Positions 10,624 to 52,174 of a stretch of 64,000 nt of DNA are shown piece by piece. Each line of letters starts with the position of its first letter. Position 1 is the first letter of the stretch. The DNA comes from Bacteroidaceae bacterium (lineage in GTDB: Bacteria > Bacteroidota > Bacteroidia > Bacteroidales > Bacteroidaceae), in the NCBI GenBank assembly GCA_017645305.1, contig JAGCPD010000009.1, positions 62,001-126,000 on the forward strand, written 5' to 3'. The notes under the pieces are model-generated. The model was not told where the DNA came from. It did not search any database and saw nothing but the letters and a program-made list of their open reading frames with translations. A program made the translations under genes and the position numbers.

Positions 10624-10655
10624 CAAAGTTACGAATAAGCGAGAACAATACAAAA
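10624..10655 (-). promoter_or_regulatory. valS promoter, cassette copy 1
   Basis: Minus strand TTTTG (10655-10651), 19 bases, TAACTTTG (10631-10624). The spacer is nearly the same as in the copies at 10706, 19550, 19631, 19714, 51979 and 52143, with a conserved CGCTTATTCG next to the -7 box. Confidence 0.75.
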
Positions 10656-10705
10656 TAAAAGTATTTTTTATTTTTATTGTCGAGCGAAAGAAAGTTCGGC
10701 ATAGC

Positions 10706-10737
10706 CAAAGTTACGAATAAGCGAGCACAATACAAAA
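10706..10737 (-). promoter_or_regulatory. valS promoter, cassette copy 2
   Basis: Minus strand TTTTG (10737-10733), 19 bases, TAACTTTG (10713-10706). It is 82 bases upstream of copy 1 and separated from it by a block GCCGAACTTTCTTTCGCTCG followed by an AT-rich run, as at 19582-19630. Confidence 0.7.
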
Positions 10738-10785
10738 TAAAACAGTTTTTATTTTTATTGCAGAGAGTGTGTCAACGGCAATAGC

Positions 10786-10793
10786 CAAAGATA
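10786..10793 (-). promoter_or_regulatory. Remnant of a third valS cassette (-7 box only)
   Basis: TATCTTTG on the minus strand, 80 bases from copy 2, preceded by the same ATAGCC junction. The expected spacer and -33 box are replaced by the heptad repeat at 10801-10832, as if the repeat had interrupted the cassette. Confidence 0.45.
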
Positions 10794-19178: not shown

Positions 19179-19223
19179 CAACATAGCAAAAAGTGTTTTT
19201 CATGGTATTAGATTTTTAAGGTC

Positions 19224-19261
19224 AAGATTCAAGGTCAGTGATGATATTGAATCTTTTTTTT
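19224..19261 (+). terminator. Terminator after tRNA-Asp copy 1
   Basis: AAGATTCAA, 14-base loop, TTGAATCTT and a T-run. The same hairpin, base for base, follows copy 2. Confidence 0.85.
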
Positions 19262-19458: not shown

Positions 19459-19508
19459 CAAAGTGAAAGTAGTAAAAAAATGTTTTCATGGTATTAGATA
19501 TTAAGGGT

Positions 19509-19548
19509 AAGATTCAAGGTCAGTGATGATATTGAATCTTTTTTTTTT
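19509..19548 (+). terminator. Terminator after tRNA-Asp copy 2
   Basis: AAGATTCAA, 14-base loop, TTGAATCTT, long T-run that leads directly into the first promoter cassette of the next gene. Confidence 0.85.
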
Positions 19549-19549
19549 A

Positions 19550-19581
19550 TTTTGTATTTCTCTCACTTAATCGTAACTTTG
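19550..19581 (+). promoter_or_regulatory. Promoter cassette 1 of the GH5-GH43 gene
   Basis: TTTTG, 19 bases, TAACTTTG (19574-19581). First of three tandem copies spaced 81 and 83 bases apart; the spacer ends CACTTAATCG. The cassettes and the terminator fill the 340-base gap 19459-19798. Confidence 0.7.
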
Positions 19582-19630
19582 GCTAAGCCGAACTTACTTT
19601 CGCTCGACAATAAAAATAAAAAAAAAATTA

Positions 19631-19662
19631 TTTTGTATTGTTCTCGCTTATTCGTAACTTTG
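19631..19662 (+). promoter_or_regulatory. Promoter cassette 2 of the GH5-GH43 gene
   Basis: TTTTG, 19 bases, TAACTTTG (19655-19662). The spacer is the same as that of valS copy 1 in all 19 positions (read on the opposite strand). Confidence 0.75.
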
Positions 19663-19713
19663 ACGATGTCGAACTTCCTTTCGTTCGGAAATGAAAAGAA
19701 AAACGGGCTTTTC

Positions 19714-19745
19714 TTTTGCATTTCCCTCACTTAATCGTAACTTTG
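19714..19745 (+). promoter_or_regulatory. Promoter cassette 3 of the GH5-GH43 gene
   Basis: TTTTG, 19 bases, TAACTTTG (19738-19745), 53 bases before the start codon; the copy most likely to drive the gene. Confidence 0.75.
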
Positions 19746-39025: not shown

Positions 39026-39267
39026 TAAAAATCGATTTATTTTTCTCTTTTTTTCACCTGCCTTTGCCAGAATCGCAAAAGACATGCTTTTCGGAAAAGT
39101 GTCACACGTGTCAAAGTGGTCAAGGCTGCGATTAAGTGAGTGTAGAGCCAACTTGTCCTACCTATGCCGAGCGTAAGCAGGCTCGCCAAAATGACCGCGA
39201 CAGTGCAAAAAAATCTGGAAAAAAATCAAGAAAAAATCGTACACCGCAATGAGCGTGCCGTACCTTT

Positions 39268-51978: not shown

Positions 51979-52010
51979 CAAAGTTACGAATAAGTGAGCG
52001 GAATACAAAA
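51979..52010 (-). promoter_or_regulatory. fmt promoter, cassette copy
   Basis: Minus strand TTTTG (52010-52006), 19 bases, TAACTTTG (51986-51979). Spacer ends CACTTATTCG, the cassette type. Confidence 0.75.
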
Positions 52011-52095
52011 TAAATCTTTATTTTTATTCCCAAACGTGAGGACTCCGCCTGCGCCTGAGCACCTACTGGAGCGCAAGAAGTTCGAGATATAATCT

Positions 52096-52127
52096 CAAAG
52101 TTACGGATAAGTGAGTGAAAAAGGAAA
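52096..52127 (-). promoter_or_regulatory. Second, decayed cassette in the fmt direction
   Basis: TAACTTTG on the minus strand (52103-52096) with a cassette spacer (CACTTATCCG next to the box), but TTTCC in place of TTTTG. Confidence 0.5.
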
Positions 52128-52142
52128 ATAAAAGCCTTTTTA

Positions 52143-52174
52143 TTTTGTATTGTTCTCGCTTAATCGTAATTTTG
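52143..52174 (+). promoter_or_regulatory. Promoter cassette of the sensor-kinase-like gene
   Basis: TTTTG (52143-52147), 19 bases, TAATTTTG (52167-52174), 29 bases before the ATG at 52204. It is divergent from the two fmt copies. Confidence 0.75.

Follow-up and report, generated by a model that had tools for sequence, protein, structure and literature searches.

Palindromic repeats that move and promoters that move have both been described before, and the kinds nearest to the repeat described here are the BOX elements, the REP sequences with their RAYT proteins, and the BrickBuilt MITE. BOX elements of Streptococcus pneumoniae are interspersed modular repeats with extensive predicted structure, for which effects on expression have been reported (PMC3049150). 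REP sequences and BIMEs are abundant intergenic palindromes, found in clusters, that consist of a stem with a bulge and keep their structure while the stem sequence varies (PMC3733652, PMC6006769), and a Bacteroidetes subclass is reported to be flanked by "atypical secondary structures" (PMC6006769). The BrickBuilt MITE of Porphyromonas gingivalis has promoter activity shown with lacZ, one of its copies lying before argS (PMC4596501). The consensus recognised by sigma-ABfr in the Bacteroidetes is TTTG / TAnnTTTG; ordinary promoters of this kind have a free spacer and no paired upstream arm (PMC7366714).

The units considered here, first seen in the window (the whole 64,000-nt stretch of Bacteroidaceae DNA that was analysed), have the same boxes and spacing as those ordinary promoters, but both boxes lie within one hairpin. 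Like BOX, they form tandem modules of varying number, are structured and precede unrelated genes; BOX, however, is arranged as boxA-boxB(n)-boxC, whereas the unit here, compared by description, is a single module, repeated whole, that holds a sigma-ABfr promoter and ends in the -7 box (PMC3049150). They share with REPs and BIMEs the features listed above, but REPs are 20-40 bp long with an unpaired GTAG or CGTC tag, whereas the units measure 74-83 nt and show no tag at their foot in alignments. BrickBuilt is likewise intergenic, from the Bacteroidales and internally repeated in tandem, but it has a 23-nt minisatellite and terminal repeats like those of known ISs (PMC4596501), whereas the promoter here lies inside a single covarying hairpin. 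The Correia elements (CREE) of Neisseria are also small inverted repeats able to bring promoters, but differ by description in size and target (cited in PMC3049150). Neither Rfam nor the open-access literature searched yielded a case in which both core boxes lie in one covarying hairpin that lands exactly on the -7 box of another gene. With a probability of roughly three in four, the units constitute a family of interspersed palindromic repeats, similar in kind to REP, BOX and MITE sequences, that carry a built-in sigma-ABfr promoter, amplify, and supply genes with new promoters.

Anatomy and covariation of the unit

A preliminary description of the window had reported tandem promoter cassettes ahead of a GH5-GH43 gene (a label that NCBIfam did not confirm), valS and fmt, repeated every 80-83 bases around a nearly constant spacer. 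The repeats are present at all three places and exceed chance: TTTTG-TATT-N2-TCTCGCTTATTCG-TAACTTTG, allowing up to three mismatches, matches the window six times and 100 shuffles not at all, and the GCCGAAC...TTTCGCTCG block between copies occurs three times against 0.03 expected. The features of the window, with matches to the covariance model (CM) of the unit where noted, are as follows.

10624-10705, minus strand: valS array, unit 2 (CM match L001:1501-1578)
10706-10785, minus strand: valS array, unit 1, inserted, not in sister species (CM match L001:1583-1670)
10786-10793, minus strand: -7 box of the older, ordinary valS promoter, TATCTTTG, aligning with the single promoter in L168/G208, G199 and G195
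19540-19581, plus strand: GH5-GH43 array, first copy, right half only (-33, spacer, -7), no left arm
19582-19662, plus strand: GH5-GH43 array, full unit, arm type A (ACAATAAAAATAAAA / TTATTTTGTATTGT)
19663-19745, plus strand: GH5-GH43 array, full unit, arm type B (GGAAATGAAAAGAAAA / TTTTCTTTTGCATTTCC), the gene's terminal promoter
39121-39185, minus strand: GC-rich unit with no promoter box, CGAGCCTGC ... GCAGCCTTG, ends still complementary
51979-52095, minus strand: fmt unit, 117 nt, with a GC-rich insert GCGCTCCAGTAGGTGCTCAGGCGCAGGCGGA in its left part
52096-52174, no single strand: symmetrical back-to-back unit, 79 nt, with a minus-strand box toward fmt and the plus-strand promoter of a histidine-kinase-like gene

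Several particulars of the preliminary description changed on this reading. The 80-83 spacing held for the GH5 and valS arrays, whereas periods of 74-76 and 84-85 occur elsewhere; all three GH5 copies exist, but the first is a half unit; and the three copies at fmt are not a tandem array, since 51979 and 52096 read in the minus direction but 52143 in the plus direction, the last two within the back-to-back unit that serves two divergent genes, as another symmetrical unit does at locus L048. The insert GCGCTCCAGTAGGTGCTCAGGCGCAGGCGGA is shared by units at L057, L089 and L007. Two stretches of the window, 19193-19261 and 19480-19546, each following a tRNA-Asp copy, match the Bacteroidetes FopS sRNA family just below the cut-off, and the second ends just ahead of the GH5 array.

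Read side by side, the sites show that a full unit, as a rule 74-83 nt long, is one imperfect palindrome that includes a complete promoter. From left to right it comprises a small hairpin, CGAA-NNTAC and TYYCGCTCG, then two arms separated by a loop, with the -33 TTTG inside the right arm, and finally the strongly conserved spacer CTCRCTTAWTCG and TAnnTTTG. The outer helix pairs the left end (CGAA-N-TAC, also written CGAA-NNTAC) with the unit's own -7 box, GTA-N-CTTTG, while the inner helix pairs the upstream arm with the -33 box and the "variable" spacer bases, the -33 TTTG lying in the 3' arm. The internal loop between the helices keeps its sequence (TYYCGCTCG / CTCRCTTAWTC, the latter being the "spacer"), and the small hairpin between units changes its own (GGC-TAT-GCC, GACC-TGC-GGTC, GAGAC-TTT-GTCTC). 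The ends are thus 9-bp imperfect, covarying terminal inverted repeats, and together with a GC content of about 26-40% in most units, the absence of coding capacity and the dispersal described below they give the unit the features of a MITE. In a second subfamily (L088, L070:1554-1645, L030:2812-2895 and L251) the left end is CGAAGATAG-GCNGCACCTCGG, the right end CTCGGTTTGCACTATCTTTG, and the outer helix is free of mismatches.

The arms occur as types that change in concert (ACAATAAAAATAAAA/TTTTATTTTGTATTGT, GGAAATGAAAAGAAAA/TTTTCTTTTGCATTTCC, GGGAATAAAAATAAA/TTATTTTGTATTCC, GGAAAAGTTCAAAT/ATTTGGCTTTTC), and because left and right change jointly, the five spacer bases that had been taken as free to vary form one side of a helix; the unit of conservation is not the spacer, as first proposed, but a hairpin spanning the whole promoter. 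In a set of 34 units, pairing holds in 90.9% of the cells across the 21 base pairs of both helices, and double changes fill 79 cells where shuffling gave 25.7, whereas helices slid out of register on the same set gave 42-51% paired and 7-17 double-change cells. For 121 distinct units from several genomes of the genus, in an alignment that had been fitted to the structure, 93.9% of cells are paired and double changes number 298 against 88.9 shuffled; the shuffle controls are inflated by related rows, a flaw from which the slid controls are free, and units that are related cannot be counted as independent. The decisive pair involves the first "n" of TAnnTTTG, a position at which the promoter consensus allows any base: in 179 of 224 units it covaries with a position about 60 nt farther upstream (T-A in 95, A-T in 44, G-C in 40). 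Arrays in which the upstream box differs from the downstream one are informative here: the partner is the unit's own -7 box in 29 of 37 units and the upstream neighbour's box in 4, so that every unit forms a single hairpin across its own promoter.

A stable fold with compensatory pairs, which upstream copies could transcribe, would also suit an RNA element acting in read-through transcripts, whether to attenuate them, to affect their stability or to mark where they are processed. The outer helix, however, has the -7 box itself as its 3' strand, so the main transcript would begin past the hairpin; many sites hold a single copy; and Rfam covariance models gave no match to the units. This is the least probable of the alternatives considered.

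The palindrome persists where the promoter is missing. GC-rich units that lack a promoter box, among them window 39121-39185, keep their ends paired with different letters, CGAGCCTGC/GCAGCCTTG, and the common denominator of the units is structure, not the promoter. Some of these promoterless units overlap the 3' ends of opposite-strand genes; those at L029:1320-1398, L085 and L090 cover the last codons of genes ending in GKKVAIK-type tails.

Dispersal and turnover among genomes

In the genome searched (3.47 Mb, 75 contigs), the core CGCTTATTCGTAACTTTG was found with up to two mismatches at 63 places and its reversed control at none. Unit totals rest on covariance-model searches, the genome-wide check that the preliminary description had called for, which returned 118 matches at E<=0.1 and about 105 at E<0.01. 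Among named relatives, rumen Bacteroidales/Bacteroidaceae MAGs, for example RUG12069 and RGIG6899, are the closest. Of 61 genomes from the genus, 9 have no copy and the richest at least 71, and two genomes searched more deeply hold 86 and 81 units at E<=1e-7; because MAG assemblies break at repeats, arrays are under-counted. At the family level some genera include both carrier and empty species. The spread looks mostly old, since units at different loci differ substantially.

The clearest comparison is at valS. In G199, G208 and G195 the gene has a single ordinary promoter, TTATCTTTG followed directly by CACCCGATT, whereas here 162 bp, comprising two units, separate GTATCTTTG from CACCCAATT, with both flanks kept. 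The inserted DNA sits exactly after the TTTG of the old promoter, and its last unit brings a new -7 box, TAACTTTG (10624-10631), the present box of valS, 42 nt ahead of the called ORF start. The presumed remnant of a decayed unit at 10786 is instead the older promoter's -7 box, TATCTTTG, which stands alone in the sister species. At one gene at least, the alignments thus indicate that the repeat landed exactly on an existing promoter and replaced it. CTTTG occurs on both sides of the insertion, which may reflect either duplication of 5 bp or a motif used for cleavage. In more distant relatives the valS promoter contains other units or part-units (L137, L140, L162) or none.

This is the one clean empty site, the remaining comparisons showing turnover rather than a single dated insertion. 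Every close genome differs at fmt, and in G199 the promoter of the adjacent kinase gene is a plain one. At two loci a single whole unit distinguishes G199 from G208, a pair with about 96% identity at valS; the differences between sister species amount to one 84-bp or one 82-bp unit between flanks about 98% identical, and arm types differ at several orthologous promoters. The ffh gene was dropped as a second empty site because its neighbouring genes differ: it is a rearranged gene with a unit promoter, lying behind a unit here (L036/L376) and, in G199, a relative with 98% identity, immediately after another gene (L377).

Swapping of whole arm types at orthologous promoters, together with the near-identity of tandem units in places (L018, L048), would be expected if the palindromes were kept perfect by mutation alone, through quasi-palindrome template switching and gene conversion between units, with nothing recognising the structure. 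Against this rather improbable account, the loops flanking the helices keep their sequence while the stems vary, as expected of a structure that is read, and the repeat must also have reached new loci, as at valS. The suggestion that unrelated genes share a promoter module that is mobile or amplifies is supported by some 105-118 copies, patchy occurrence in the genus, the empty site and whole-unit changes; a spacer held at the same genes in all strains, which would have pointed to ordinary descent, was not what the sister genomes showed, as valS and the gene beside fmt lack units there. With dozens of sister-species comparisons within one rumen genus, the family offers a ready natural experiment on bacterial promoter swapping.

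Promoter content and use

The unit contains both sigma-ABfr boxes, TAnnTTTG at -7 and TTTG near -33, spaced by 19-20 nt. Where the downstream feature is rnpB (RNase P RNA), a tRNA or a TPP riboswitch, its 5' end follows the terminal box by 13-40 nt; start codons mostly follow it by about 15-60 nt. The genes downstream are unrelated, among them valS, fmt, hisH, coaX, ffh and those for a histidine-kinase-like protein, agmatine deiminase, an rRNA methyltransferase and asparaginase. The terminal box is under selection: its TTTG is kept in 151 of 163 terminal copies against 47 of 73 internal ones, and ATTG is found in 1 terminal and 17 internal copies. From this pattern the last copy appears to be held as a promoter and the others relaxed, which does not support the idea that each copy fires. 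If units do fire in culture, they would provide natural, stackable promoters for Prevotella-like rumen bacteria.

The strong conservation of CTCRCTTAWTCG, and the right-half-only copies that appear from their sequence to be stand-alone promoters, are what ordinary promoters would show if the spacer held a site for a common regulator or an alternative sigma factor, tandem copies raising output. Such an arrangement is unlikely, as it leaves unexplained the covariation of the -7 "n" and of the arms with distant bases, the promoterless units with paired ends, the range from 0 to over 80 copies in one genus, and the loss of TTTG from internal copies. Since both core elements lie inside covarying helices, the hairpin might alternatively be a regulatory switch selected gene by gene, extrusion of a cruciform under supercoiling hiding -33 and -7. 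The genes served are unrelated, however, some genomes of the genus lack the repeat, and the structure persists in promoterless units, so that a supercoiling switch is still less likely than a regulator site.

Routes of multiplication and the search for a mobiliser

As a family of interspersed repeats with a built-in promoter, the units have probably multiplied by two routes. In the first, a unit would insert directly 3' of the TTTG in a pre-existing -7 box, and its right end would re-supply TAnnTTTG, so that the gene receives a new promoter; in the second, whole units would be gained or lost in tandem, for which slippage or recombination would suffice. The last copy would then work as the promoter and upstream copies would be under weaker promoter constraint. 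The conserved hairpin is probably recognised as single-stranded DNA by a trans-acting transposase or strand-processing enzyme, and survival of insertions where the gene gets a working promoter would explain their position and orientation. In a further possible, but doubtful, extension, the promoter itself would be the mobile entity: the folded strand, with both boxes paired, would be the substrate of a putative enzyme that targets the -7 TTTG, promoters would be swapped gene by gene, and the fold may gate transcription.

Insertion 3' of (C)TTTG at valS, the same end letters, hairpin ends and conserved ends and loops resemble folded-strand elements (IS200/IS605, REP), a likeness rather than evidence of membership; no transposase was found. 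Unlike RAYT (TnpA-REP) genes, which are flanked by REPs, Y1 genes here neither flank nor track the units, and a RAYT/IS200 mobiliser was rejected because Y1_Tnp neither follows copy number in the 61 genomes nor adjoins units. The only Y1_Tnp-like locus of the genome, L060 (G000:C28), is broken into two overlapping frames, seems to be degenerate and has no unit nearby; among 12 Y1_Tnp loci examined, none had a clear adjoining unit and one had a weak match. A search of the unit's own genome for an autonomous element with similar ends, confined to Y1_Tnp, found none, and no IS matched the unit.

A multicopy IS of G208 and G193 was also rejected as the mobiliser, since its inverted ends (CTATGTTkGC) and 6-bp TAACTT duplication are unlike those of the units. 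Its end matched nothing in plasmids or viral contigs, a match in G201 being due to chance, and its transposase falls in assembly gaps. In every case seen, in G208 (right ends at L308, L309, L311, L317, L342 and L362; left ends at L357, L359 and L360) and in G193 (L349/L371 and L352/L366), this IS lies in the -7 box beside a unit; it uses the units' -7 box as its target.
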